DNA of 27,186 nt. Origin: a virus. This document shows positions 1-24,467 of the stretch, piece by piece. Position 1 is the stretch's first letter; each line of letters starts with the position of its first letter. Location of the stretch: positions 1-27,186 of IMG/VR virus record IMGVR_UViG_3300032288_005686, one strand, 5' to 3'. The notes under the pieces were generated by a model, which worked only from the letters and a program-made list of their open reading frames with translations, did not search any database and was not told the DNA's origin. Both the position numbers and the translations under genes were made by a program.

Positions 1-770
1 GTTATATAAGGTTTAAAAACGCCTATATTCCTTTCTATTTTAAGGTTACCAATTCCCATTACATAAGGAATAGCAGATGCAAGACAAGGAGTACTTGTAC
101 AGTAAGGATAAGTACCATGATTTATATCTAACATAGTACCTTGAGCGCCTTCAAATATTACATTTTTAGCATTTTTAATTATATCGAGTATTAATTCACG
201 TTTTAATAAAACTACGTTTTTAAATTCCATTAATGATATTAATTTTTTAGTTTCATTTATATTTTCTTCAAGGTACTGTTCGTCTATATGATGTAATTTA
301 AAATAAGTTTGTATTTTGGTTTTTTCATCATGATCCATGATATCTTTAATAGTAATTGCAGTTCTACTTACAAACGATGCTGTTGCTGGTCCAATACCAC
401 TTTTGGTAGTACCAATATTTAGAATTGCATCATTTAATTGGTCTTGCATTTTATGCATAGGTAAGATTACAGAACAATTTGTATCTACAATAATAGTAGG
501 AGTGAATGCTTCTTGCTTTAGATAATTGATTTCTTCAATTAATTTACCTAAATCAATTAAACAGTTTCCTGTAATTACAACTTCTTTTGAGCGTAATGCA
601 CCAGAAGGAATAAGTTTTAATTTGTATTGTTTTTTATTTACTTGAATTGTATGTCCTGCATTTGGACCACCAGACCATCTGATAACTAATGATTCTTCAT
701 CAGAGTAAAAGTCTGTTATTTTTCCTTTACCTTCGTCACCAAATTGAGCACCTGTAATTGCAGTAATCAT
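1..770 (-). CDS. purA: Adenylosuccinate synthetase (PurA family), 3' end outside window
   Basis: PurA-family enzymes join IMP and aspartate using GTP to make adenylosuccinate, the committed step to AMP. I translated the minus strand from the ATG at 770. The product opens MITAITGAQFGDEGKGKI, the GTP-binding glycine loop of the family, followed by GGPNAGHT, IGTTKSGIGPA and FEGAQGTMLDINHGTYPY, all in the family order. The frame is open to base 1, giving about 256 residues of a usual 420-430, so the C-terminus lies outside the window. The Asp of GDEGKGK, the catalytic base of canonical PurA, is present; as I recall, the 2-aminoadenine-forming PurZ enzymes replace it, so this looks like a PurA-type enzyme rather than a proven PurZ. 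The start lies 3 bases after the stop of the upstream gene, implying cotranscription. A phage copy suggests boosted adenine nucleotide supply. Confidence 0.93.
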   Translation of the reverse strand, partial: MITAITGAQFGDEGKGKITDFYSDEESLVIRWSGGPNAGHTIQVNKKQYKLKLIPSGALRSKEVVITGNCLIDLGKLIEEINYLKQEAFTPTIIVDTNCSVILPMHKMQDQLNDAILNIGTTKSGIGPATASFVSRTAITIKDIMDHDEKTKIQTYFKLHHIDEQYLEENINETKKLISLMEFKNVVLLKRELILDIIKNAKNVIFEGAQGTMLDINHGTYPYCTSTPCLASAIPYVMGIGNLKIERNIGVFKPYI

Positions 771-7242: not shown

Positions 7243-7303
7243 ACCAAGACCATTGAGATTACTCTCTAGGTTTCGGCCTTGCTTAAGGGCCTCATCAGTT
7301 GGT
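7243..7303 (-). ncRNA. Type I hammerhead ribozyme candidate (A)
   Basis: Minus-strand RNA. CUGAUGA lies at 7298-7292, stem II GGCC/GGCC at 7291-7288 and 7278-7275, then GAA at 7274-7272. Stem III closes with ACC (7271-7269) against GGU (7251-7249), with an inner GAGA-GUAA-UCUC hairpin. Cleavage is predicted after GUC, between 7248 and 7247. Open stem I pairs UUGGU (7247-7243) with ACCAA (7303-7299). All canonical core bases are present. The 5' strand of stem I overlaps the stop codon of the gene at 7303-7515. Confidence 0.85.
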
Positions 7304-7515
7304 TACCAATTAATATGATGTGTTGAGCCATCTTTGAAAATAACTTCTTCTATGTTATTTTCAATTACAATGCCATCAATGTCAAACGCCTTATTTTTTA
7401 CCAATTCAATTGTTTCTGGGGAAACAAACAATCCTTCGCTTACTACACCAAAACTATTAACAAAACCAATTAGATTTAAATCTTTATAAACTTCAACTTG
7501 TACAAATGCTTTCAT
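7303..7515 (-). CDS. Hypothetical protein, 70 aa
   Basis: Not recognised. A small soluble protein with beta-like alternation (KAFVQVEVYKDLNLIGFVNS, FDIDGIVIENNIEEVIFKDG). AGGAG lies 8 bases before the ATG at 7515. Its mRNA would be bounded by the tRNA-like element (7631-7675) at the 5' side and hammerhead A at the 3' side; the stop codon's last base is part of stem I of that ribozyme. Confidence 0.77.
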   Translation of the reverse strand: MKAFVQVEVYKDLNLIGFVNSFGVVSEGLFVSPETIELVKNKAFDIDGIVIENNIEEVIFKDGSTHHINW

Positions 7516-7630: not shown

Positions 7631-7675
7631 ATCCTAATTAAGGAATCGAACCTTAACAAACCACCTGGTTAGGAT
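7631..7675 (-). ncRNA. Truncated tRNA-like element (copy 1)
   Basis: The minus strand folds into an acceptor-like stem AUCCUAA/UUAGGAU (7675-7669 with 7637-7631) stacked on a T-arm UUAAGG-UUCGAUU-CCUUAA with a canonical T-loop. A 12-base linker (7668-7657) containing GGUGG replaces the D and anticodon arms. There is no anticodon arm, so it is not a decoding tRNA. A second copy with the same 12-base linker length lies at 15871-15913. It overlaps the last three codons and stop of the upstream gene. The acceptor/T minihelix is the minimal substrate type for RNase P and CCA-adding enzymes. Confidence 0.7.
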
Positions 7676-8325
7676 ACTACCTCATATTCCCACTCAAAAT
7701 TACCCTTTACATATGAATATCGCGCGAAAAATACATCCTCCCTTAAACGCACATAAAATGCGTTTGTTTGATATTCTTCCTTGTCCTCATTTACCTGTAA
7801 TAGAATTTCATCTTCAATATGAGGAATCACATCCTTCATAGTCTCAAATTCCGTAAATTGTAATTCCATGAAAGGATTAGATTGGGATCCATTCATTGCA
7901 TCAAACAAGCCATCAAATACTTCCTTCTCCTTCTCATAGATTCCCAATTGATTTTGTTCATAGAGGATATCCATGTACTCGATATCGTTAATTAGGTCTT
8001 CAAATATTTGCGCATCATAAACTCCATAATTCTCTCCATCTTTACTTACTAATACTTTATCTTTTACATATGAACATCTAAATCCATTTTCATTTCCGAC
8101 CTCACATAAATAATATAACAATTCCTTATCTTCAAAAGACAATTTAGTTACCAAATGAGGATGACATTCCAAATATACTTCCATCTTCTTCCATACCTTT
8201 ATGTCTCTATTAAATATATTCAAAGGTAATTGTTTACTATATGCTAATACGCCATTAATATTAATTATTACTTCTACAATTGCTGGACTGTTTAAATTAG
8301 TCTCTAATAAAGTAAGATTAATCAT
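7669..8325 (-). CDS. Hypothetical protein, 218 aa
   Basis: Not recognised. A large soluble acidic protein rich in Glu, Tyr and Val; it opens MINLTLLETNLNSPAIVEVI and ends FEWEYEVVS. AAGGAG lies 10 bases before the ATG at 8325. The message would be released by hammerhead candidate B upstream. Its stop codon lies inside the acceptor stem of the tRNA-like element at 7631-7675, so 5' cleavage of that element would leave the mRNA without its stop codon. Confidence 0.8.
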   Translation of the reverse strand: MINLTLLETNLNSPAIVEVIININGVLAYSKQLPLNIFNRDIKVWKKMEVYLECHPHLVTKLSFEDKELLYYLCEVGNENGFRCSYVKDKVLVSKDGENYGVYDAQIFEDLINDIEYMDILYEQNQLGIYEKEKEVFDGLFDAMNGSQSNPFMELQFTEFETMKDVIPHIEDEILLQVNEDKEEYQTNAFYVRLREDVFFARYSYVKGNFEWEYEVVS

Positions 8326-9304: not shown

Positions 9305-9362
9305 GGAAGACCATCGGGTTACCCCTAGGTTTCGTCTGGCCCCCGCCAGACTCATCAGTCCC
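9305..9362 (-). ncRNA. Type I hammerhead ribozyme candidate (C)
   Basis: Minus strand. CUGAUGA (9358-9352), perfect 7-bp stem II GUCUGGC/GCCAGAC with GGGG loop (9351-9334), GAA (9333-9331). Stem III closes ACC/GGU with inner GGG-GUAA-CCC, mirroring candidate A. Cleavage is predicted after GUC, between 9309 and 9308. Stem I pairs UUCC (9308-9305) with GGGA (9362-9359). The element begins immediately after the stop codon (9363-9365). Core bases are all canonical. Confidence 0.87.
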
Positions 9363-9752
9363 TTATTGGTAATAATCATCATCATTATCGTCTAAAGCAT
9401 AGTTTGATTTTGATTCTGATTCTGGTTTCTCCTCTACTACTAATTGCTTAGTACTAGAGAGTAAAGGAGTAGGTTTTTTAGTTTCTATTTCCGCTACATT
9501 TTTCTCCTTTGGCATTGAGCCATAGAAGTTGTAAGTGTTGTGGATAATTGTTGTAGGGTGATGAGGTAGTATAATGGCTTTCATTTCCATTGCTATCTCA
9601 TTTCTTTTTTGAGCAGTGCAGGATTTTTTTAATTCCGCATTAGTGATTAATACGGTAATTGAAAAATCCTTTTCTATCATGAAGGCTGCGATTACTCGTG
9701 GGCCTTCATTTTCTCTGAGTAGTTCTTTCAAGATTTCTTCATCTTCACTCAT
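9363..9752 (-). CDS. Hypothetical acidic protein, 129 aa
   Basis: Not recognised. An N-terminal globular part (about residues 1-70) is followed by a low-complexity, Lys/Glu/Ser-rich tail ending LDDNDDDYYQ, which looks disordered and strongly acidic. AAAGGA precedes the ATG at 9752. It is the first gene after the polymerase-like gene, separated from it by a terminator-like hairpin; the type I hammerhead C starts at its stop codon. Confidence 0.78.
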   Translation of the reverse strand: MSEDEEILKELLRENEGPRVIAAFMIEKDFSITVLITNAELKKSCTAQKRNEIAMEMKAIILPHHPTTIIHNTYNFYGSMPKEKNVAEIETKKPTPLLSSTKQLVVEEKPESESKSNYALDDNDDDYYQ

Positions 9753-9871: not shown

Positions 9872-12800
9872 CTATAGACTGCCTTCTTCAGTAAACTCTA
9901 ACTTCAATGAAGGTCGGGTAAAGTAGAACGCAAAAGGAGAATTAACCAATGATTCATTACCGTATTTCTTGTAATGAATTAGACTCAGACAAGCTCTTAG
10001 TTCTTTAGAACCGGATTTGTTGATTAAGCCTTTCATACAATTATCTACGATAGCTGGATCCATTCCGTTCCACTTCTTAATCCCTAGGCCTATTTCTAAA
10101 TTCGTTAAGAATCTGGAATTCAAACCTAAGAAATTCAAAATATAAATTCCCGCTTCTAGACCTGCAAGATCTATCGCAGTTGTATACATTTGTGCCATAG
10201 AGACACTCTTGTGATACACGATAGATTGTTCAAAAGGAGAATATGCTGTAGAAGCTTTGAATTTCTGATATTCAGTTACTTTTTCTGCTTTCTTGTAGGT
10301 TTGACTATAGCCTGAATCAGGTCTATAATTGTCATTTCTACCAAAAGCGATAGGTTGACCGAATATTTGGGCTGCCAAAAGTTGAACAGAATGTGGATAG
10401 AGATTATTTAAAATTTCATCAAAATTGTCAGAACCTTGCAATGGCGCATTCATAGGTATACCTAATGAATCATGCGCAGCTTTTCTGAATAATTGAACCA
10501 TGTTGAAACCTTTATTCTCTCTTCTCTTTTTCTCAAACATGTTTTCCAAAAGAAAACAATAAGGGACGAATACGGCTCTGTCATATTCCATATCTTCCCC
10601 TCTGTATTTCTTTGTACTTTTTGTTTTGAGTTCAAAAGAGACTGAATGGATCAAGTCTAATGCTCTTAATAAATCACTACCTTTCAGTAGTTCATAAGAG
10701 GCATAATCTTGATTCTTCATATCCACACAAGACAACTTGAACATTCTCTTCTTGCTAGTCACCTCTTTATCTCCATATTCTATAAATACACCGTCATCTG
10801 GCGTACCTACAACCTTATTAATCTGGTTGAGGGAGATGATTTGACCAAAACCGAAATTAAGATCAAGTGCGATGTATTTTTGTATTTCTATTCCTTGTCT
10901 TTGCAGATGCTTGGTCATGAGACTAAAGTACTGCACCCATTCCTCGGACCTTTTAATTCTTCCTTCTACCGCGCTTACAACTTTCTCTAGTTTGATAGAT
11001 AAGTTGGTACCACAAAGTAGTAAGCCACCAATTATCTCCGCCCAAAATTCCCAAGCAAAATTAAAATTAGCTCTTGGATTTAGAGCTTTCTCAGAGATCC
11101 ACTCTCTGCCTCCCCAAACTTTAATTTCCTTAATTACCAATCCCTTGTTTTTCTCTACTTGCTCTTTACCAAAGAACTTCATCCCCATTTCTAAGCGGTC
11201 GATAAAGGTTAGACAAGATTCGACATCAGACCATCTTTCATCTTTTTGAGCTTTTAACTCATGAGAAAGATTTGCATTTTTGTCATCGAGGAGAAGTTGA
11301 ATCATTGATAGCTTGAATTCATTCCTCCAGCCAGCGATTACTTCTTCGCTAAAAGCATTCTTTACATCATTGAATTTCTCAATAATGAAAGGTAAGAAGT
11401 ATTCATTTTGGAAATCTACTCTTTCAGAGTTCTTTGCAGACTCCGAAATAGCTTCTAAACAATCCGCTAAGAATTCTACAAAGAGGTCTTTTTTATCTTC
11501 CTCAATAACTATCTTGTTTTGATAGTATTTCGCCGCAGCAAATTTTACTGCATTCTCGAATTGATTCAGATATAAAGCTCTTCTTTCTTGATTGACTTGA
11601 CTGTTTAGAAGGCCTTTCCAAACCCTATTGGCAAAGGCTTCTTCCCAATTCGCTAATTCACCTTCACCCTCGAACTCTTTGAAGACTGATGCAACATGTG
11701 CAATTTTTTCTCTTGCGCTCTCAACACTTGCTTGTCTAGAGGACTGTGCAGTGTTTTCTTTTGCTCTTGCCTTTAGGGCTTGAGAAATCAAGAAAGCATC
11801 AGAGAATAATCTACAATGAGAATCTGGAGTTAATTCTTTATTATCATCCAAACGGATAAGGAATTCAGAAGATTCATAAGAGTTTAAAATGTTATCTTTG
11901 ACAACTTCTCTTACCTCTCTCAAAGAAGAGATATTAGTAGAGAATTTAGTGTTGAACAAAGAGTTAAACTCCGCATCTATATGAGTTTTAACCAAACTCA
12001 TATGAGTAGGTCTCTTACAATCATCAGAAGCAGATTTCAACCATTTTAAGAGATTCTTTCTGTCCACCAGAAAATAAGAATCCATCTTATCACAAGAAGA
12101 AGACGACCAAGTTGCAATTCCTCTAACCCACTCCTTGCCATCCCTTTCCTCTCCCCCACCTTCCACCATTTTAATATTTCCATTAATCAGTTCCTCATAA
12201 ATCTCCTGCCAATCTCCCTCCGCTTTCCCTGTCCATTGTGCTAATTTGAATGCAAATAGCACAGTTTGAGACCACACCAAGGCCCCTTTTACTGTATACC
12301 CCTGATTCTCATCAGTGATTTTAACCATCATGCCAGATTCCATATCTAGCATTTCCTCTTCCTTATCCATAAAGTTCTCCTGTTCAAACCAAGTAACAAC
12401 TTCTTCTTCAGAGCTAAATTTAATCTTGTCACTTCTGAATTTATCCTCCCCCATTACGATATAGGAGATACCAGGCACAATCATCATCTTATTACCCACA
12501 CTAATAGGCCCCCTAGATAAATGCCAATATTTTAGAGATGGAATCACATAAGCGTACTTTTGCCTATCGATGAACGCTTGTTGCACATCGAAGCAAGTAT
12601 AGAAGTATCTTCTAACCCATTCTAACATCCTTACTCCACCATTAGTTCTTTCTGCCTCAAAGTAGGTGGTTGCCATGGCAGCAACGTTGGTAATACCGCC
12701 AACGTTTAATTGACCGCCATTTTTGACAGTGAGAAACATAGATAAATCCTCAATACTGTCATTGTCGTCTTGTTCCATAAATTCCAGAGCTTTCTTCATT

Positions 12801-14980
12801 TCCTTTTCTTGTTTTACCCCACTAAAAACAGAACTTTTAATTACCAACTTTTTACTCTGCTCTTTGGTTGGTCTTTCATCCCTTACGAAACCAATTAATT
12901 TAGCTATACACACCCATAGCCTATTGGTTGTAAGGATATTTCTATCACCATCATTATCCCCTGTAACGATGGCTTGCAATTCAGTGCTTACCCAAATGAT
13001 ATCATCTATCAATTGGGGAGCAATAACTGCACGATAGAAAGACTTGAAAGAGGCTATTTCGTTATCATTCATGGCCCCAAATATTACATTCCTGATTTCT
13101 TGATACTTATTCTCCAGTTTACCCTCTATTACCGCATCCCATGCATCGCGGTAATCAATGAGATGCACCAATTGGACTGAGCTTGCATCCTGATTTGGAG
13201 TACGAGTGAGACAAGCTTCTAACCATGGCTTGTCTCCAAAGTTTCTTCTCTCTTCGGGACTCCATTTTCCCAATACGACATCTCCCGCACCAAAACTCAT
13301 CATGTTTACGTATTTACTTGCACCTTTTATTTCAAAGGTGTTCACAAGATGCGCATATTTCTCCCCCTCAAGAGAGTTCATGATACCCAATAGATTAGGA
13401 CTCTCATCCAAATGGTTTTGATTTAAAATCTTAGCCAATTTAGATTCAATCCCCTTGCTCAATAAGGAGAAGAATTCATCTTTAAGAGCGTCTATTGTGT
13501 CATCGCCAGTGACATTTAAAGCTAATAACAATTGGCTAATTTGCCAGTTATTACTAGTCTTTAAATTTTGTTTGTCTTTTGCAATGATTGTGAACAACCC
13601 TTCTCTTTTGAGAATACCATCAGCTCCCAAATCTACCTTCTTTCCTTTACCCTTTAAGGTAGAAGGAGTAACCAATGCGCCTTTCCAATATTTGACGCCA
13701 TTTAATTCGATACTATAACCTCTTGAATACCTGAGGTCATTAATAAATTCCTCCAATTCCCTTTTATCTTTTTCCCCTAAATTCAAGTCCTTATAATTAA
13801 CCAAGGACAATACCCCATTTTCTTCCTTAACTAGATATGCCGATCTAGCAAGAAAACCTTTTGCAAATACACCTCTATCGATGTATCTAAACTGGTGTCC
13901 CACCTTATCTAAGACACCAACAGTTGCCAATGCCGCACCATCATTGCCTTCCCAAGGCAAGACCGCATCAGATACCAGGAATACTGGCAAATCATTCATA
14001 TATTCACAGCTCTTTAAAGCAGGAGTAGTGATGAATGACTTGAGATACCCTCTTTGTTCTGTAAAGTTATTGAAAACCTCACCAGACAAAGTTATGATAT
14101 TCTTCCATAATTCAGTAGACACATAAATTCCCTCAGCTACTGGGTGATAGCCAATCCTTGCCATAGCCTTGATGAAACCACGGCGGGTTGAAGAAGATAG
14201 ATCCATTGACACTTTTACGATGTCTTCTGGACTATAACTGATTCCAAATTTTTCCAATAGGGTAAACAAACTGGAATTCCAATCTGTTGTCCCCTTTAGA
14301 ATCACATTGAAATCATTTATTTCCTCTGTATCAAATGCCATCGCCTTTGCACTGGTCACTGATTTTGCTTTGGCTTCGGAAACCACAGCAATTTCAGCGA
14401 CAATTCTCATTCCTTTTTTATTGGATAGAGAATCTTTCAACTCATTTTTTAGTTTATTTACGAAGCTGGATCTCTTCGTTAAACCATTATGAGTCTCAAT
14501 AGTACCATTACCAGCAGAAGAAAGAGATTTTCCAACTTTTGCACCTAAAGAAAGTGCTAAGTTTAAAAACAAAGGAGAAACTCTACCAATCAATAGAGAG
14601 GTAAAGAAACTCAATCCTTTTTCTTTTCGAGCTTCAACAAAAATCTCAAGGTCACGATAGAAAAGAACCAAGCCACGAGACCACGAAGAGGTTTTGGCTC
14701 TATCTTTGCGCGCTACCAATTTGGCTTTGCGTTCAACTTTAGCTTTTGCTTTACGTTGCTTTTCAGCTTCGTAAATCGCTGTGGTTCTGGCTTTAGCTTC
14801 GATCTCTGCTCTTACTCTTGCTTCTTCATCAGCTTTGGCTTTCTTTGCTCCCTCTGCGAGTGCATTGAAAACAGCCAATTTAACCAATGCATTGTTTAAT
14901 GCACAAAAGTGGTCACTTGTACCACATCCGCTAGAAATCACTGATTTTAAATCAGCAATTAAATTTAATAAACTTTCCAT
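9872..14980 (-). CDS. Putative single-chain double-psi-beta-barrel RNA polymerase
   Basis: A 1702-residue protein, the largest in the window. Residues 675-679 read DNDGD inside VTGDNDGDRNI, matching the DxDGD metal-binding signature of two-barrel RNA polymerases (bacterial beta', QDE-1/cellular RdRP, YonO, crAss-phage polymerases). About 80 residues earlier, TRTPNQ (592-597) fits the RxP motif that precedes DxDGD in that superfamily. Residues about 44-96 are a charged Ala/Lys/Glu helix, unusual for such enzymes. I could not place the second-barrel lysines, so assignment rests on one strong and one weak motif. The ATG at 14980 follows GGAG. Two tandem GACGAGACG motifs and a 12-bp leader hairpin lie upstream. 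It could transcribe phage genes; RNA-templated activity cannot be excluded. Confidence 0.6.
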   Translation of the reverse strand: MESLLNLIADLKSVISSGCGTSDHFCALNNALVKLAVFNALAEGAKKAKADEEARVRAEIEAKARTTAIYEAEKQRKAKAKVERKAKLVARKDRAKTSSWSRGLVLFYRDLEIFVEARKEKGLSFFTSLLIGRVSPLFLNLALSLGAKVGKSLSSAGNGTIETHNGLTKRSSFVNKLKNELKDSLSNKKGMRIVAEIAVVSEAKAKSVTSAKAMAFDTEEINDFNVILKGTTDWNSSLFTLLEKFGISYSPEDIVKVSMDLSSSTRRGFIKAMARIGYHPVAEGIYVSTELWKNIITLSGEVFNNFTEQRGYLKSFITTPALKSCEYMNDLPVFLVSDAVLPWEGNDGAALATVGVLDKVGHQFRYIDRGVFAKGFLARSAYLVKEENGVLSLVNYKDLNLGEKDKRELEEFINDLRYSRGYSIELNGVKYWKGALVTPSTLKGKGKKVDLGADGILKREGLFTIIAKDKQNLKTSNNWQISQLLLALNVTGDDTIDALKDEFFSLLSKGIESKLAKILNQNHLDESPNLLGIMNSLEGEKYAHLVNTFEIKGASKYVNMMSFGAGDVVLGKWSPEERRNFGDKPWLEACLTRTPNQDASSVQLVHLIDYRDAWDAVIEGKLENKYQEIRNVIFGAMNDNEIASFKSFYRAVIAPQLIDDIIWVSTELQAIVTGDNDGDRNILTTNRLWVCIAKLIGFVRDERPTKEQSKKLVIKSSVFSGVKQEKEMKKALEFMEQDDNDSIEDLSMFLTVKNGGQLNVGGITNVAAMATTYFEAERTNGGVRMLEWVRRYFYTCFDVQQAFIDRQKYAYVIPSLKYWHLSRGPISVGNKMMIVPGISYIVMGEDKFRSDKIKFSSEEEVVTWFEQENFMDKEEEMLDMESGMMVKITDENQGYTVKGALVWSQTVLFAFKLAQWTGKAEGDWQEIYEELINGNIKMVEGGGEERDGKEWVRGIATWSSSSCDKMDSYFLVDRKNLLKWLKSASDDCKRPTHMSLVKTHIDAEFNSLFNTKFSTNISSLREVREVVKDNILNSYESSEFLIRLDDNKELTPDSHCRLFSDAFLISQALKARAKENTAQSSRQASVESAREKIAHVASVFKEFEGEGELANWEEAFANRVWKGLLNSQVNQERRALYLNQFENAVKFAAAKYYQNKIVIEEDKKDLFVEFLADCLEAISESAKNSERVDFQNEYFLPFIIEKFNDVKNAFSEEVIAGWRNEFKLSMIQLLLDDKNANLSHELKAQKDERWSDVESCLTFIDRLEMGMKFFGKEQVEKNKGLVIKEIKVWGGREWISEKALNPRANFNFAWEFWAEIIGGLLLCGTNLSIKLEKVVSAVEGRIKRSEEWVQYFSLMTKHLQRQGIEIQKYIALDLNFGFGQIISLNQINKVVGTPDDGVFIEYGDKEVTSKKRMFKLSCVDMKNQDYASYELLKGSDLLRALDLIHSVSFELKTKSTKKYRGEDMEYDRAVFVPYCFLLENMFEKKRRENKGFNMVQLFRKAAHDSLGIPMNAPLQGSDNFDEILNNLYPHSVQLLAAQIFGQPIAFGRNDNYRPDSGYSQTYKKAEKVTEYQKFKASTAYSPFEQSIVYHKSVSMAQMYTTAIDLAGLEAGIYILNFLGLNSRFLTNLEIGLGIKKWNGMDPAIVDNCMKGLINKSGSKELRACLSLIHYKKYGNESLVNSPFAFYFTRPSLKLEFTEEGSL

Positions 14981-15475: not shown

Positions 15476-15808
15476 TTAATAACAGACGAAGCTATTAACT
15501 GATAAATAGACCCAATTAGGTCCATTCTCAGTCAAAGTAAACATGTTGATTGGAAAACCAAAGTAGCATCTTTTTGCTTTTACAATAGCGAAGAAATGCA
15601 AACAAAACAGAACCCATTGGCTTCTATTGAAGAAGCCACGATTCGCTGCGAAGACATGCTTCAGTGCATGTAGCACTTCTACATCAACACATTCAATTTC
15701 GTTCTTGTTTACCAAAGCTTTGATTGTTGCCACTAAAGCCTCTAGTTTCCCAGAAGCTTTAAGAGCACTCTTTAGTGCTCTAGGAATAGAAAAAATCCAT
15801 TTACCCAT
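15476..15808 (-). CDS. Hypothetical basic protein, 110 aa
   Basis: Not recognised. The N-terminal half is helical and Ala/Lys-rich (SIPRALKSALKASGKLEALV); the C-terminal half is aromatic and Cys-containing (RSQWVLFCLHFFAIVKAKRC). The ATG at 15808 follows AAAGGATC. Its leader carries the GACGAGACG motif and the second truncated tRNA-like element, so the transcript would begin with, or be processed at, that element. The open -1 frame after the stop is noted under findings. Confidence 0.72.
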   Translation of the reverse strand: MGKWIFSIPRALKSALKASGKLEALVATIKALVNKNEIECVDVEVLHALKHVFAANRGFFNRSQWVLFCLHFFAIVKAKRCYFGFPINMFTLTENGPNWVYLSVNSFVCY

Positions 15809-15870
15809 GATATTGATCCTTTCAATGGGAGTTGGAGGGAAGGGTTGCTATAGCTTGTTGCAACCTTAAT

Positions 15871-15913
15871 GTCTTAAATGAGAATCGAACTCATTTTAAA
15901 TCACCAGAAAGAC
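15871..15913 (-). ncRNA. Truncated tRNA-like element (copy 2)
   Basis: Minus strand: GUCUU (15913-15909) pairs with AAGAC (15875-15871); T-arm AAAUGAG-UUCGAUU-CUCAUUU (15896-15876) has the same T-loop as copy 1. The 12-base linker (15908-15897), UCUGGUGAUUUA, matches copy 1's linker at CNGGUGRUUU. Total helix is 12 bp. No anticodon arm. It sits in a gene leader, 11 bases past the promoter motif. Confidence 0.65.
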
Positions 15914-15923
15914 CGGGGTTTTT

Positions 15924-15935
15924 CGTCTCGTCATT
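15924..15935 (-). promoter_or_regulatory. GACGAGACG motif, putative phage promoter (copy 5)
   Basis: The minus strand reads TGTAATGACGAGACGAAAAA. It lies about 25 bases past the terminator at 15961-15982 and about 115 bases upstream of the 15808 start. Confidence 0.6.
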
Positions 15936-16047: not shown

Positions 16048-16104
16048 GCTATTTCGACCCTCAATTAGGTCATCATCAGAAGAAGGAGAAACCTTCTTGA
16101 TAGC
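16048..16104 (-). ncRNA. Type III hammerhead ribozyme candidate (D)
   Basis: Minus strand. Stem III GCUAU (16104-16100) with AUAGC (16052-16048). Cleavage is predicted after AUC, between 16099 and 16098. Stem I is a closed 7-bp hairpin AAGAAGG/CCUUCUU with UUUCU loop (16098-16080); core CUGAUGA (16079-16073); one extra U (16072); stem II GACC/GGUC (16071-16056); GAA (16055-16053). The extra U before stem II is shared with E, F and G. It lies 48 bases after the stop of the nucleotidyltransferase-like gene. Confidence 0.8.
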
Positions 16105-16152: not shown

Positions 16153-16857
16153 TTACCAGCCGTTATTTTTGTCCCAAACAACAGCTTTATCCCACCATTT
16201 TTCCCTTCTTCTTCTTTCTTTTTTTATCTCCTCTTCTATTCTCCCCCTTCCTCTCTTGTTCGTTTTTTCTTTAGACCATTCCAAGAAAGAAATCCAATCC
16301 CTTCCATCATTTTCTACCTTTTTTCTTCCTTCTCTCTTCACCCATCTTAGTATCCCTTCTTCATCCCATTCTTGGGAATAGTTAAGGGTCGTATTCCATA
16401 CCCCCATCCTGTATCCCATAATTAACGCCCTCCATCTTTCCTTCTCCTCCTTGTAGGGAGAGCAATTTTCCTTTATTAAATTTTGGTTTCCGTTCTCCCC
16501 GAGAATATCTTTTAGGTCTCCAAAAAACCATACCTTCTTTTTCCATAATAAAATACACCCTCTATTGAGAGTGCAATCTACATTCTCAAGGTGATCCATT
16601 GCCGCTTCTTTAATTGTCTTTTCTTCTTTTAGTTCCATATCCAATCCCCCCTCTCGGGCTTTTAGATAAAGATCAATTGAAGAACAGAAGCAATCGGTGT
16701 CTTGGATATTAAAATCTGAATTTTTAAATTGTTTCCAAATTAATGCGCGCATCACTCCCCCTTTTAGAAAGAGAGGAGTATCACCAGCTAATTCTAATAA
16801 AGCAGAAAGAGAAGGAGAAGAAATAAGAATATTAAGATTCAACTTTACGATATTCAT
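16153..16857 (-). CDS. Class-II nucleotidyltransferase-like protein (CCA-adding/poly(A) polymerase fold)
   Basis: A 234-residue protein. FLKGGVMRALIW (residues 30-41) matches the GGxxR nucleotide-binding turn, DTD (53-55) the two catalytic aspartates, and NVDCTLNRG (92-100) the rRDFTxNA/NRG motif of CCA-adding enzymes and bacterial poly(A) polymerases. Spacing between motifs is as expected. The protein is short for the family (usually about 400), so the C-terminal body/tail domains that position tRNA are replaced by a Trp/Lys/Arg-rich region (KKERRRREKWWDK). Such enzymes add nucleotides to RNA 3' ends. Neighbouring tRNA-like minihelices are plausible substrates. The coding strand is strikingly purine-rich. 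The start lacks a Shine-Dalgarno site but has a leader hairpin shared with the 17682-18275 gene. Confidence 0.62.
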   Translation of the reverse strand: MNIVKLNLNILISSPSLSALLELAGDTPLFLKGGVMRALIWKQFKNSDFNIQDTDCFCSSIDLYLKAREGGLDMELKEEKTIKEAAMDHLENVDCTLNRGCILLWKKKVWFFGDLKDILGENGNQNLIKENCSPYKEEKERWRALIMGYRMGVWNTTLNYSQEWDEEGILRWVKREGRKKVENDGRDWISFLEWSKEKTNKRGRGRIEEEIKKERRRREKWWDKAVVWDKNNGW

Positions 16858-19083: not shown

Positions 19084-19815
19084 ATGTCTAAAGAAGAGAG
19101 ACAATTGCAATATTTTCAAAAAGTTAGCACCGATGAAAGATATGAAAAATATCTTTCAAAAATCCCAACACATAAATTAACTCATATTAAGAATAAAGTA
19201 GCTACTCAAGGGGTCTACACTATTTCTCCTATTATCTGTCAAGGTCCAGATAAATGTCCTTTTCTTTCTAGATGTCCTATTCCTGAAGTTGATGATAATG
19301 GCAAATTAAATAAGTTAAGTTTAGATATGTATCCTGTTAATCAAGCTTGTATTGTAGAAAAATATTTTGTTGAGCAGAAGACTATCGAATATATGCAACA
19401 TTTAGATGTAGATCCTTCCAATCCAGTAGAGATGTCTATTGTAGAAGAATTAGCTTTAATTGATTTATATAAGAATAGAGCTTTAACTGTTTTATCTAAT
19501 GGCGATAAGAATGGTTTTGGTAAGGATTTTTTACTTACTGAGATTACTGGGTTTAATGAAAATGGTGATGTTGCTACTCAAACTAAATTACACCCTTTAT
19601 TAGAGCTAATAGATAGATTAGAGAGAAGACGCGAGAGATGGTTGGAGAAGTTAATGGAGACTAGAACCTCTAAAGCTGCATTTATTAGCAAGCTAGGTTC
19701 CGAGCAAACTAATTCTAAAGTTTTAGGAGAGATACAAAAGCTTAGGGAAGCTTTATTAATTCAACAAGATTCTGTTACTATTGTTGGAGATGAGATTTTA
19801 CTGGATGAAAAATGA
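19084..19815 (+). CDS. Cys-motif phage protein at head of packaging operon
   Basis: I chose the ATG at 19084 (MSKEERQLQYFQKVS), which follows TAGGAG at 7 bases, over a GTG at 18994 that would add a 30-residue hydrophobic stretch translated from the promoter region. The 243-residue product has C52-x5-C58-x5-C64-x24-C89 (CQGPDKCPFLSRCP), which suggests a metal or Fe-S site, then a helical charged C-terminal half (LIDRLERRRERWLEKLMETR). Its place at the head of the operon ending in terminase raises the possibility of a small terminase subunit, but that is positional inference only. The stop overlaps the next ATG by 4 bases. Confidence 0.78.
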   Translation: MSKEERQLQYFQKVSTDERYEKYLSKIPTHKLTHIKNKVATQGVYTISPIICQGPDKCPFLSRCPIPEVDDNGKLNKLSLDMYPVNQACIVEKYFVEQKTIEYMQHLDVDPSNPVEMSIVEELALIDLYKNRALTVLSNGDKNGFGKDFLLTEITGFNENGDVATQTKLHPLLELIDRLERRRERWLEKLMETRTSKAAFISKLGSEQTNSKVLGEIQKLREALLIQQDSVTIVGDEILLDEK

Positions 19816-22800
19816 AAAAGAAACCTAGTTACAGTTTTGCTTCGTATAGCCAAGATAACAAGATTATTTCTAACGTATATGATAATCCTCAAGAAACTAA
19901 TTATAAATTTGGTAGTTCTCAAGAGATATTAAAAAATGCAGTAATTCTTGATATCGAAACCTTAGGTTTAAGAACTGAATCTATACATGAAGCTGCAATG
20001 TATCATTTAGGTACTAATCAACTAGATATATTCATTCCAGAAGTAAATCTAATTAGGAAAATAGAAGAAGAGAGTAATGCTGCTACCAAGGCATCTAGTG
20101 CTAGTACTATGGACGTGGATGTTTTAAAACATTTGCGTTCTAGGGAGCCTGGTAAATTTGAACCTTTAATTAAACAAATGACTTACAGGGATATTGCTTT
20201 TGCAGATTATTTAATGAATAAAAATAGATACGATGAGATATTAAAAAATATAGAAGAATTAAAAAGAAATAATAAATTTAATGGCAATACTATTCTTGAG
20301 AATAAAGTTAATGCATTAGAAGATAGGTTAAAAAGATTATCTGTTATTGATAAAATTAGTAGTATTTCACTTAAAGAAAAAGAAATTGAAAAAGCTGGAA
20401 TAATGCTTGGGGATTTATCTGCATATTCAGATGTAGAATTGTTAAAGACTGTTGGTTTTCATGATGCTTTTGCTAGGGATGAGGAATTCTTAGCTAAATA
20501 TATTTTAGAAGGCTCTAAAGGTTTTGAAGAATTTGCTAAAAAGAGTCCTCAAGAAGCTGCATACCTTAAGTATATGTATGATAATTCAGTTAAGTATGAT
20601 GCTGATTTCTTTAATAAGATGAAAGAAGCTTATGCTGAAAAGTTAAAATCATCAGGACAATACGTACAATCTATTTTTGAGAATACTAAAATAAATGTTA
20701 GAACTGGTGTATCTCAAAATGATTTGCTACGTAATATTGCCTTTTCAAGAGAAAATAAAGCTTTATTTGTAGCAAATTTATCATATGAATCTAAAAAGTT
20801 CGGTACTCAGTTAAGAGCTAGTTTAGAAGATTCTTTTAAAGTAGAGGAAGCAAAATATTTATCTGAGGTTCCTGATGCTAAACCAAAAGATGTAGCTACA
20901 GAGGTTAGACGTAGGACTTATTCTCAAAGTATTTTCTCTGTACTTGGACAACCAGTATCTGCTTCTACTGGTGAACCTTTTTATGCAACTGGCATGGAAT
21001 ATAATAAAACTTTAACTGAAGCTAAATTGTTCAAAGATTTTACTAATGTTGCTGGTTCTATTATTGCGACTGCAGACACTACATCTAACTTAGATATTCA
21101 AGATATTATTCGTTCTCAACAAAGTATTTTAATTAATTTAGGTTTATTAGATGCAAAAAAGCCTTTAGGGCTTTCTATGGAAGCGCAATCTAGACTTTAC
21201 ATGTTTACTAGTATGCTAGACGCTCCAGAAGAAGCTTTAACTGAAATACTAGCAGATTTTAAAGAAACCCACACTGCAGGTTTAGATACTTTAATACATG
21301 AAAATGTAGCTTTAAAAGAATCTATGGAGCAAGCTGAAGCTTTGACTGAATATTTAAAAGGTACTGATAAAGCTCAAGAATATATGAGAATGGGTAAGGA
21401 AAGAAAAGGCCCGCTATATAAAGCAGTTGTGTATTCCGAATTAATGAAACAATTAACTCCAGAAATAGAATCTATTAACATGGAGAAACGTTTGGCATCA
21501 GATTTAAAACAATTAACAGAGTTTGGTTATATTACTCAAGCTAAAACAATTGCTAAACCCATATATAGAGAGCAAGTAAGATATTTACCACAAAGTGATA
21601 TAGTAGAAACTACTAAAATACAAACCCCAGGGTATGATAGAGATTATTTTGTAAGTTACAGGGATTTTAGAAAAAATATATTAGAGAATGCATTTCCAGG
21701 AAAAGAAACTCAATATAAAACTTTTGAGCAAGATTTACTTGGTAGAGGATTTATTTTTCAAACATCTGCAGGAGAATATGAATTTAATCAAAGTTTACTA
21801 AATATAGAGGATCAAACTCCTGAAGCTACAGAATTAAGAAAAAATATTGCGGCATATTCTGCAGAAAGAGAAAAGACTACAGCGGATACGGTTAGGTCTT
21901 TCAGGAATTTAGCTAAAAATTTAAATAAACAAGAATTATTACAAAGAGCAGATAGGTTTTTTTATAATCAAGAGTTGGTGCCACCTAATATCATCTCTAA
22001 TGCAAAGATGAGTAAATCAGAACAAACTGCAACTGAAAATATTAGAAAACAATTAAAGATGGCGCAACAACACAAAGCCACTGCAGACAGATTAATTAAA
22101 TCAAAACAACCCGTTACATTACAAACTTTAGAAGATATAAAAAACTTAAATCTACCAGAACCTAAATTATTAGAATTAGAAGCAGCTAAACAAACATATT
22201 CTAGAGGAGAAAAAATCGGTACTCCAGAAATAGCTAGAGTTAGTTCTCAAATTCCTTATGATGAAATGGAATTTAATAAAGCATTTTTTGAAGTAGAATA
22301 TAATAAGAGTAATCAAACTAATTTAACTACTGAGCAAATTATTAGTAGAGAGCAAACTAATTACGGCGTAATTCAAAAACAAATAGTTAAGCAAGCAGCA
22401 GAAAGAAGTGAAGAATTTGGCAAAAAGGAACTTGGTTTTGAAAAACAAATCAATGAAATTCCTTTATATGGCGAAAAGACAATAGAAGATTATAAGATAG
22501 ATTTTGAAGAATATAAAAAAACAGGTAAGGTATTGACTAGTTACGGCGTTGAGCAGATAGACCCTATGTTTAATAAGAACATGAGTCTAGACGAGAAGAT
22601 AGAAAGGTATTCTCAGTTTAATTTTGAGTTAGAAGAATCTTATTTACATTCTAGAACTCCTGAAGGCAATGTTCAAATACTTACAGAACCAGAATTAAAA
22701 CAGAAATTATTTATAGATAGTACTGTTGATTTCTCAGCAAAGCCTGCAGTTACACCTGGTCATGAAAGTTTAGCTGCGTTTGATTTAAGAAATAATATAA

Positions 22801-24467
22801 ATATAGGAAATGTAACTGCTGCAGAAAAAGATGAGATTGCATCTAAATTTATAAATGAATCTTTTGATAATGGTTTAGAAAAATATTATGCACCTTTATT
22901 AGATAGTGCAGCTGGTGTCAAATTCTTTGGTATGTATGGTGTTGGTGTTGCTAGTTTAGCTTTATTAAGTATAGGCCAAGAAGAAGAAAAACCTAAATCT
23001 TTACTCTCTCCTGATTTTGATACTTGGTTTGAAAATCAATCTAAGTTTTTTGGTGGAGAAAATAATTACAAACAAAAGCTAAATGATAAATACTTTGCTG
23101 AGAATGAAGGTATGTCTGAACAAGGTATTGCTCCTTTATTACGTAAATTAACAACAGACTTTGGTTCTCCTTATCAAGGACCTGCAGGTAGTTATGCAGT
23201 TTTTGAAGACCAAAAACTTATGGCAGAAAGAGAAAAATACTCAAGGTATATTTTTACAGAAAGATATTTCTCTCCTAAGGGTGATATTTATAATTTGTTA
23301 AGAAGTTTTGTAGCTCAAAAATTTAAAGAACCTATTAGATACTTCCCTAGTGGTGGAGAAAGAGTATCTGGACAAGAAGCTATGTCTTTAAAAGGCAATA
23401 ACTTAGTTAAATTAAATTTAAAAGATGGTTATGATATTACAGTAGAAGATGCCGATACTATTACTATTCAAAAGAAAGGTGCGCCAGATAATGCTCTATC
23501 TAAATTTATGGGAAGTGGCAATTATAGTTTCCGTTTAGCTGGTATTGATGCTCCTGAAACTGCACACGATGATAGAGCTGCACAACCTTATGCAGAACAA
23601 GCCAAAGCAACATTGCAACAAATGGTTGATTCAGGACAAGATTTAAGTGTAGTATTTGACCCTTCAAATGTTACTTATGGTCGTCAAGTTGCTACTTTAT
23701 TCGCTGGAGATACTAATTTAAATTTAGAGTTATTAAAAAGAGGTGCTGTAGCTTATTTACCTTATGAAGGTAAAGGCGAAGAACAAATGTATAATGAGAA
23801 GGCTTTCTCTGCGGCACAAAAATATGCAATGGAATCACGCAGAGGAATCTTTAGTCAACCATTCTTTCAAGTGTACAATGATGTCTATAAACAAACTCAA
23901 CAATCTGTAACATTTAATACTTTTGCTAATTATGAAAAAGCTTCAAGAGATAGTAATTTAACTAATATGTTGGGAGTTATGTTATCTGCTCAAAAAGAAG
24001 GTAAAGTAAATGAACAACATAAAGAAGAAATAAGTCAAATTGTACAAGATATTCAAGCCTCTCAAAAAACATACAAGAGTAAATTGGATTTCTTACAAAC
24101 TTCAAAACTTCAAATGACATATCAACAAAAAAGCTTTGGTAAACCTTTTGAAGATGATTTTACTAGTATAGATATGCATTTAAAACCAGCTAGACATAAT
24201 GAGTTTATGTCAGAAATGCAATTTGATTTAAAAAGATTAATAGAGACGAAAGGTTCTAAAAATCTAACTAATAAATTAGAATATAGTGGCGCGATGTTAG
24301 ATAACAATCTCTCTTTATTAGAATCTTCTGCTAGACCTGTTTCTAGAAATAATTTAAAGAGAAGTAATAACACAAATAAAGCTAATAGAATCAAACAAAT
24401 GGAAGCTTTACAACATCATGCAAATCGAACTTTAAAACAAAATCCAATACAACATAATAGGATGTAA
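19812..24467 (+). CDS. 1551-aa multidomain protein with exonuclease motif and SNase domain
   Basis: Residues 43-52 (AVILDIETLG) match motif I of DEDD exonucleases (D47, E49). I did not find convincing motifs II and III, so this domain may be partial. A long helical, charged middle (about 150-1000) is followed by a hydrophobic segment (about 1035-1058). Residues about 1205-1335 are a staphylococcal-nuclease (thermonuclease) domain: RLAGIDAPE (1241-1249), YGRQVATLF (1289-1297, catalytic Arg), LLKRGAVAYL, and a closing AMESRRGIF. SNases cut DNA and RNA with calcium. The C-terminal 200 residues are Gln/Asn/Lys-rich. Position next to terminase and great length suggest a virion protein, possibly injected with DNA. 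The stop is 2 bases before the next ATG. Confidence 0.82.
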   Translation: MKKKPSYSFASYSQDNKIISNVYDNPQETNYKFGSSQEILKNAVILDIETLGLRTESIHEAAMYHLGTNQLDIFIPEVNLIRKIEEESNAATKASSASTMDVDVLKHLRSREPGKFEPLIKQMTYRDIAFADYLMNKNRYDEILKNIEELKRNNKFNGNTILENKVNALEDRLKRLSVIDKISSISLKEKEIEKAGIMLGDLSAYSDVELLKTVGFHDAFARDEEFLAKYILEGSKGFEEFAKKSPQEAAYLKYMYDNSVKYDADFFNKMKEAYAEKLKSSGQYVQSIFENTKINVRTGVSQNDLLRNIAFSRENKALFVANLSYESKKFGTQLRASLEDSFKVEEAKYLSEVPDAKPKDVATEVRRRTYSQSIFSVLGQPVSASTGEPFYATGMEYNKTLTEAKLFKDFTNVAGSIIATADTTSNLDIQDIIRSQQSILINLGLLDAKKPLGLSMEAQSRLYMFTSMLDAPEEALTEILADFKETHTAGLDTLIHENVALKESMEQAEALTEYLKGTDKAQEYMRMGKERKGPLYKAVVYSELMKQLTPEIESINMEKRLASDLKQLTEFGYITQAKTIAKPIYREQVRYLPQSDIVETTKIQTPGYDRDYFVSYRDFRKNILENAFPGKETQYKTFEQDLLGRGFIFQTSAGEYEFNQSLLNIEDQTPEATELRKNIAAYSAEREKTTADTVRSFRNLAKNLNKQELLQRADRFFYNQELVPPNIISNAKMSKSEQTATENIRKQLKMAQQHKATADRLIKSKQPVTLQTLEDIKNLNLPEPKLLELEAAKQTYSRGEKIGTPEIARVSSQIPYDEMEFNKAFFEVEYNKSNQTNLTTEQIISREQTNYGVIQKQIVKQAAERSEEFGKKELGFEKQINEIPLYGEKTIEDYKIDFEEYKKTGKVLTSYGVEQIDPMFNKNMSLDEKIERYSQFNFELEESYLHSRTPEGNVQILTEPELKQKLFIDSTVDFSAKPAVTPGHESLAAFDLRNNINIGNVTAAEKDEIASKFINESFDNGLEKYYAPLLDSAAGVKFFGMYGVGVASLALLSIGQEEEKPKSLLSPDFDTWFENQSKFFGGENNYKQKLNDKYFAENEGMSEQGIAPLLRKLTTDFGSPYQGPAGSYAVFEDQKLMAEREKYSRYIFTERYFSPKGDIYNLLRSFVAQKFKEPIRYFPSGGERVSGQEAMSLKGNNLVKLNLKDGYDITVEDADTITIQKKGAPDNALSKFMGSGNYSFRLAGIDAPETAHDDRAAQPYAEQAKATLQQMVDSGQDLSVVFDPSNVTYGRQVATLFAGDTNLNLELLKRGAVAYLPYEGKGEEQMYNEKAFSAAQKYAMESRRGIFSQPFFQVYNDVYKQTQQSVTFNTFANYEKASRDSNLTNMLGVMLSAQKEGKVNEQHKEEISQIVQDIQASQKTYKSKLDFLQTSKLQMTYQQKSFGKPFEDDFTSIDMHLKPARHNEFMSEMQFDLKRLIETKGSKNLTNKLEYSGAMLDNNLSLLESSARPVSRNNLKRSNNTNKANRIKQMEALQHHANRTLKQNPIQHNRM

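Follow-up and report, generated by a model that had tools for sequence, protein, structure and literature searches.

The window, i.e. the whole stretch of 27,186 nucleotides of viral DNA analysed here, possesses two tRNA-like elements on its minus strand, accompanied by a repeated leader motif and by hammerhead-like motifs. The relevant features are given below, with the scores of R1 and R2, the covariance models of the element family.

7243..7303, minus strand: hammerhead-like ribozyme of type I; it begins at the stop codon of ORF 7303-7515
7631..7675, minus strand: tRNA-like element 1 (stem scan; R1 28.0 bits, E 4.4e-5)
7669..8325, minus strand: 218-aa ORF preceding element 1, which encloses the stop codon of this ORF (ORF list)
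9305..9362, minus strand: hammerhead-like ribozyme of type I, immediately following the stop codon of ORF 9363-9752
15476..15808, minus strand: 110-aa ORF with element 2 in its leader (ORF list)
15871..15913, minus strand: tRNA-like element 2, a t-element (stem scan; matches of R1 and R2)
15923..15934, minus strand: leader motif ATGACGAGACGA, which may be a phage promoter and lies 9 nt before element 2
16048..16104, minus strand: type III hammerhead-like motif (GCTATC^ stem I CTGATGA stem II GAAA TAGC) in the intergenic region of element 2 (motif)
16153..16857, minus strand: 234-aa ORF preceding element 2, same strand (ORF list)
about 17097-17035, minus strand: type III hammerhead-like motif in a leader (motif)
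4232-4221, 7157-7146, 8748-8737, 15092-15081, 15107-15096, 15934-15923 and 16921-16910, minus strand: sites of the repeated leader motif ATGACGAGACG(A)

Element 2, read along the minus strand, consists of the acceptor strand GTCTT (15913-15909), the 12-nt linker TCTGGTGATTTA (15908-15897) with an internal GG, a T stem of 7 bp (AAATGAG 15896-15890 paired with CTCATTT 15882-15876) around the 7-nt T-loop TTCGATT (15889-15883), and the complementary acceptor strand AAGAC (15875-15871). The acceptor stem of 5 bp and the T stem stack into 12 contiguous bp, and the linker takes the place of the D arm, anticodon arm and variable loop of a tRNA. On re-reading of the sequence, the coordinates, linker and pairing that a preliminary description had given for element 2 proved exact. 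It scores 40.6 bits with R1, of whose training set it is a member, and 44.6 bits with R2. The start codon of the 110-aa ORF follows after 62 nt, and a hammerhead-like ribozyme lies upstream of the element in the same intergenic region. When element 2 is folded together with its flanks, considering secondary structure only and no tertiary elbow contacts, other folds are favoured by 0-3.7 kcal/mol.

Element 1 reads ATCCTAA-CCAGGTGGTTTG-TTAAGG-TTCGATT-CCTTAA-TTAGGAT (7675-7631, minus strand) and comprises 13 bp, with a 7-bp acceptor stem, a 12-nt linker, a 6-bp T stem and a TTCGATT loop. The TAA stop codon of ORF 7669-8325 is located within its 5' acceptor strand (7671-7669). In the same kind of calculation with flanks, again limited to secondary structure without the elbow contacts, other folds are favoured by 2.1-9.2 kcal/mol. 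The linker, as GGTGGTTTGTT (7668-7657, minus strand), can pair with the downstream AACGAACTACTT (about 7625-7612); such pairing could compete with the tRNA-like fold, as a switch or by accident. As previously stated for the two copies, they have the linker length of 12 nt, the sequence CNGGTGRTTT and the T-loop in common, and their stems differ yet pair.

Elements 1 and 2 are the only matches in the window to a pattern of acceptor stem, 8-20-nt linker, T stem and TTCRANN. None of 200 dinucleotide shuffles of the window yielded a match that combined a 12-nt linker with 12 bp or more, and any looser architecture appeared at a mean of 0.115 matches. The linker and T-loop pattern has two matches in the window, against 0.03 expected. 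ARAGORN and Rfam, run on the window, call no tRNA at either element.

The promoter-like motif noticed earlier near element 2 is genuine as a repeated motif, with nine matches to ATGACGAGACGA at up to two mismatches in the window versus 0.79 expected. It occurs, at times in tandem, in leaders of the related contigs L003, L006, L141 and L142. Judged from its sequence and repetition, ATGACGAGACG(A) is a possible phage-specific promoter. Should this hold, it is plausible that element 2 forms the 5' end of an mRNA; otherwise, element 2 could be a site of intergenic processing, at 62 nt from the start codon downstream. Set against the 5'-end reading are the usual location of family members, close behind stop codons between genes of one strand, and the hammerhead-like ribozyme upstream in the intergenic region of element 2.

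The four hammerhead-like motifs within 27 kb comprise two of type I at stop codons and two of type III in leaders. They are motif identifications only, since Rfam does not call them in the window and their scores stay below the cut-off (HH9 for ribozyme 7243..7303, 20.4 bits against a cut-off of 52). This ribozyme is the positional parallel to element 1. Type I ribozymes would cut at their own 3' side and leave a structured end on the upstream mRNA, and the hammerhead-like motifs of the window, as far as sequence can tell, support the cistron-end theme also seen in the t-elements. Further hammerhead-like motifs are present in the relatives L003, L004, L006, L141 and L142, three of them within about 2 kb in L142. 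Elsewhere in the window, the protein of 3-770 (minus strand) matches PHROG 1211 at E 1.8e-61, a phage family with the annotation 2-aminooxy adenylosuccinate synthetase, and this homology suggests that the DNA is modified (Z); a 1702-aa ORF (9872-14980, minus strand) has no Pfam match, and a 1551-aa ORF (19812-24467, plus strand) possesses a Staphylococcal-nuclease-like domain at 1240-1348.

Related elements in viral genomes

Viral contigs were scanned with linker and T-loop patterns silent on the stems, and matches were filtered for pairing afterwards. The pattern TGGTGCNTT...GTTCGANTC was accompanied by both stems in 43 of 93 distinct contexts (tRNA-Gln genes account for some of these 43), GGTGRTTT...GTTCGATTC in 10 of 47 distinct contexts, and TGGTGATTT...GTTCRANTC in 6 of 90. 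A control pattern with reversed linker gave both stems in none of 20 distinct contexts. The covariance model R1, trained on element 2 and seven others, recovers two copies outside its training set, namely element 1 of the window (E 4.4e-5) and the element of the relative L003 (E 6.3e-5). Pattern scans, stem filtering and covariance model together yield 50 elements in 30 viral contigs. The proposal that the window copies represent a real RNA family is strongly supported, because R1 and R2 find dozens of elements and not merely the two sites of the window. When 36 records were searched whole with R2, 33 contained elements; these records had been picked for having matches or for belonging to the clade of the window. 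Within that clade itself, the element is found in the window and L003 only.

The structure-guided alignment A5 contains 52 rows, i.e. the 50 viral elements, one Haloarcula row and one tRNA-like row; the sequence-only alignments A1 and A2 had misaligned the stems and were superseded by A3 and A5. Stem pairs of A5 hold in 98.8% of cells and covariation amounts to 1.126 (0.213 after shuffling, 0.11-0.20 after sliding), pair counts that are inflated by the choice of members with structure-assuming models. As members were selected for pairing, most weight is given to the stem-blind patterns, the control scan and the unseen copies.

Among named viruses, the cyanophage S-TIP37 has one element (about 20517-20562), which follows gp32 and lies between psbA and the major capsid gene; a stop codon is located within the 5' acceptor strand of this element, as in element 1. 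The Streptococcus phages phiGBSVK-D_GBSInt6.2 and Javan7 carry two elements and one, respectively. The halovirus HF2 possesses two, both intergenic, and HGTV-1 one with a CTCGATT loop. SPO1 gave a partial match only, and at E 0.1 there was no match in Lambda, SPbeta, phiKZ, P-SSM2, HTVC008M, LfeInf, Iacchus, E3, MTATph1, S-CBS2 and ME3. A DNA search for the phage nearest to the window returned no match. Matches in Myrna, T4 and T5 and those of TGTTT-TTGGTGCATTTA in 15 viral contigs were discarded as fragments of ordinary tRNAs, R1 matches in L004 and G004/L006 were discarded for lack of a T-loop, and a match in Vibrio phage 501E54-1 was omitted as its acceptor stem is not clear. The phage genome G008 contains eight to nine copies. 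Two elements of this genome (L093 2180-2231 and L140 1501-1550) are variants with a longer linker, possible intermediates between a tRNA and the minimal element. The phage contig L080 encodes, about 1 kb from its t-element, a tRNA called as tRNA-Pyl with CTA anticodon (1205-1277), likely an amber suppressor.

L003, whose terminase is 92% identical to that of the window, has its element at 828-785 (minus strand), about 9.2 kb from the terminase gene compared with 9.8 kb in the window. The element occupies a gene leader after TGACGAGACGA, with the motif about 6 nt upstream, and the gene downstream weakly resembles ORF 15476..15808 (tblastx, 38% over 74 aa). Its stems, AACTCTA/TAGAGTT and TCTAGG/CCTAGA, are fully paired and have almost nothing in common with those of element 2. 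At the equivalent place, L006 possesses the motif and a hammerhead-like ribozyme and lacks the element.

Chance resemblance, for which the weak acceptor stem of element 2 (merely 5 bp) could be quoted, has a negligible probability: the shuffles (0 of 200) and the reversed-linker control scan contradict it, and there are dozens of relatives as well as an orthologous copy in L003 with replaced stems. Hardly more credible are relics of tRNA genes or attP sites from integration into a host tRNA gene. Phage attP sites do often match tRNA segments, as in T7-like cyanophages (PMC8776855) and the HF1-group (PMC7230728). However, the acceptor stem has kept both halves, which covary, one genome can contain several copies with different stems, and decay would not preserve pairing while swapping nearly every stem base between the window and L003.

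Likeness to tRNA and to known t-elements

In A5, the equivalents of G53, T54-T55-C56, T60 and C61 are invariant in all or nearly all rows, and the linker GG and A58 are near-invariant. The closing G-C pair of the T stem is likewise (nearly) invariant and R57-A58 is kept almost always; by their sequence, the conserved positions are read as tRNA positions 53-61. In tRNA, G18-G19 of the D-loop dock into the T-loop, and we infer that the linker GG is their counterpart. The acceptor/T-arm minihelix plus this GG would present an elbow-like surface, and because the GG stands in for G18-G19, such a surface could form without an anticodon arm or D stem.

Helices are 11-13 bp long in 43 of 47 elements, with a mode of 12, the filter having admitted nothing shorter than 11 bp and set no ceiling under 15 bp. 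How the total is divided between acceptor and T stem differs among elements (6+6, 7+6, 5+7). A ruler spanning elbow and cleavage site would favour just this, a helix of constant total length whose internal junction can shift. RNase P measures the acceptor/T-stem stack plus elbow, and the D-loop is reported dispensable (PMC4919913). R73-C74 follows directly after 19 of 47 elements, chiefly in the 11-12 bp class. The 13-bp class, element 1 included, is without it and element 2 (12 bp) ends in A-T, so that the copies of the window and L003 lack the ending seen in L093 and L080. The two subclasses (11-12 bp with R73-C74, 13 bp without) may reflect the need of the respective hosts for CCA contact.

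The elements thus combine a stacked acceptor and T arm and a tRNA-invariant T-loop with the absence of an anticodon arm, the structure of a t-element. They are not canonical tRNAs, measuring 43-45 nt versus about 73 and lacking D and anticodon arms, with zero calls by ARAGORN and Rfam in the window; nor are they tmRNAs: ARAGORN finds none, and a linker of 12 nt connects the two halves. The tRNA-like structures of plant viruses differ in position, since the present element is internal in the contig of a DNA virus and not at the 3' terminus of an RNA genome.

A stem-blind scan of cellular genomes with CTGGTGATTT...GTTCGATTC hit 27 places, two of which form the full fold with GG. Both belong to Haloarcula pellucida and lie immediately before 5S rRNA, the latter recognised by sequence and not by an annotation tool. 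R1, built without Haloarcula, matches this pre-5S element with 24.2 bits (E 0.0016), and the fold is the minimum-energy fold. The Haloarcula copies have the layout of the phage elements, with a 5-bp acceptor stem, a 6-bp T arm and no anticodon arm, and their linker ACTGGTGATT is nearly identical to TCTGGTGATTTA of element 2. It is through this pre-5S element that the family resembles a previously studied t-element site: in Haloferax volcanii, tRNase Z and RNase P process the pre-5S t-element, which has also served as a processing tag (PMC4326828). The position is shared with Haloferax; the likeness in sequence is drawn from the Haloarcula copies. The haloarchaeal t-element matures chromosomal rRNA in archaea, whereas the phage elements stand between protein genes of tailed viruses, in many copies and with unrelated stems. 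The tRNA-like reading of the preliminary description is borne out by the invariant elbow positions, the helix length and the recovery of the Haloarcula element.

Plant mitochondrial t-elements (Hanic-Joyce 1990 and Forner 2007, as cited in PMC8003010) are intergenic tRNA-like structures that form 5' and 3' ends of mRNAs. They belong to organelle genomes and are likened to the phage elements by description, not by sequence. Among phage RNAs, M3 RNA and C4 antisense RNA are listed as RNase P substrates in PMC11143913; compared by description, they are single regulatory RNAs and not a multicopy gene-boundary family. The same pairing of feature types has been published for one viral genome, and HF2 has two elements in this layout; the function is left undecided in that paper, which does not describe the present family, and its partial tRNA-Thr is an attP. 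No bacteriophage t-element family is described in the full texts of open-access papers searched, and the family is apparently unrecognised in bacterial viruses.

In another reading, the element uses a T-loop fold by coincidence and serves either to bind a protein of phage or host in cis or to attenuate transcription. Element 2, in a leader 62 nt before a start codon, is placed suitably for this; the diversity of downstream genes and hosts and the strict tRNA invariants, which are not the motif of a single lineage, make it very improbable.

Gene borders and possible functions

Under a simple ORF model, 33 of the 50 elements lie outside ORFs, although coding sequence makes up 86% of the contigs; of the remaining 17, most overlap nothing but short ORFs of the opposite strand. 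The intergenic elements are in sense orientation at gene borders, with the upstream gene on the same strand in 29 of 33 cases and the downstream gene in 28. Elements often start 4-12 nt after a stop codon.

We consider it fairly probable that the phage t-element is a cis-encoded tRNA mimic, which calls host tRNA-processing enzymes to gene boundaries. By analogy with the known t-elements, the phage elements probably mark sites where these enzymes cut viral messages; cleavage, the side cut and the benefit are what we infer. An element at a gene border within a long viral transcript would be recognised by the enzymes that process tRNA ends, RNase P cutting at the 5' side and RNase Z (or CCA-dependent trimming) acting at the 3' side, and these predicted cuts would part upstream from downstream mRNA. 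For element 2, the downstream mRNA would acquire a defined 5' end near 15870. After a cut at the 3' side, the upstream mRNA would end in the mimic as a stable 3' terminus; with the stop codon inside the 5' acceptor strand, such a cut may be what chiefly happens at element 1 and in S-TIP37. Cutting at the 5' side would remove the upstream stop codon in these two cases, which fits a simple separation by RNase P poorly, and we argue from the embedded stop codons that the 3' cut matters more than the 5' cut at some sites. Mitochondrial polycistronic RNA is punctuated by full tRNAs, cut out by tRNA processing enzymes. The phage elements would share this logic; unlike full tRNAs, they cannot decode.

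The same placement bears on an unlikely alternative, in which the element stays uncut as a folded tRNA-like end (3' of the upstream message or 5' of a leader), shielding it against exonucleases and possibly CCA-tailed, as in plant-virus structures. Positions right after stop codons, the stop codon inside the acceptor strand of element 1 and S-TIP37, and the repeated leader motif 9 nt upstream of element 2 all agree with it. Helix length and elbow, however, are those of a processing substrate, and elements are found within long same-strand gene runs, so that an end there still needs cleavage or termination. Quite improbable is an action in trans of the excised element, as a small decoy occupying tRNA enzymes of the host or defences aimed at tRNA. 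RNA mimicry by phages has precedents in other systems, and several copies per genome (8-9 in G008) would suit a decoy, but anticodon nucleases would not see the element since it has no anticodon arm, and placement follows gene boundaries and not one strong transcription unit.

Processing by host enzymes in cis remains the preferred reading. In a wider and more tentative form, multicopy t-elements of tailed viruses of bacteria and archaea might turn host tRNA-processing enzymes into general mRNA cutters, and in the lineage of the window they might be interchangeable with hammerheads at the stop codon, two unrelated RNA-cleaving devices thereby serving to separate cistrons.

Plant mitochondria and haloarchaeal rRNA are the known settings of t-elements. 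Their widespread occurrence in phages, if true, would mean that viruses punctuate their transcripts via host RNase P and RNase Z. It would explain the recurrent intergenic 'tRNA fragments' of phage genomes, and would give a new Rfam-type family as well as natural 43-nt processing tags.
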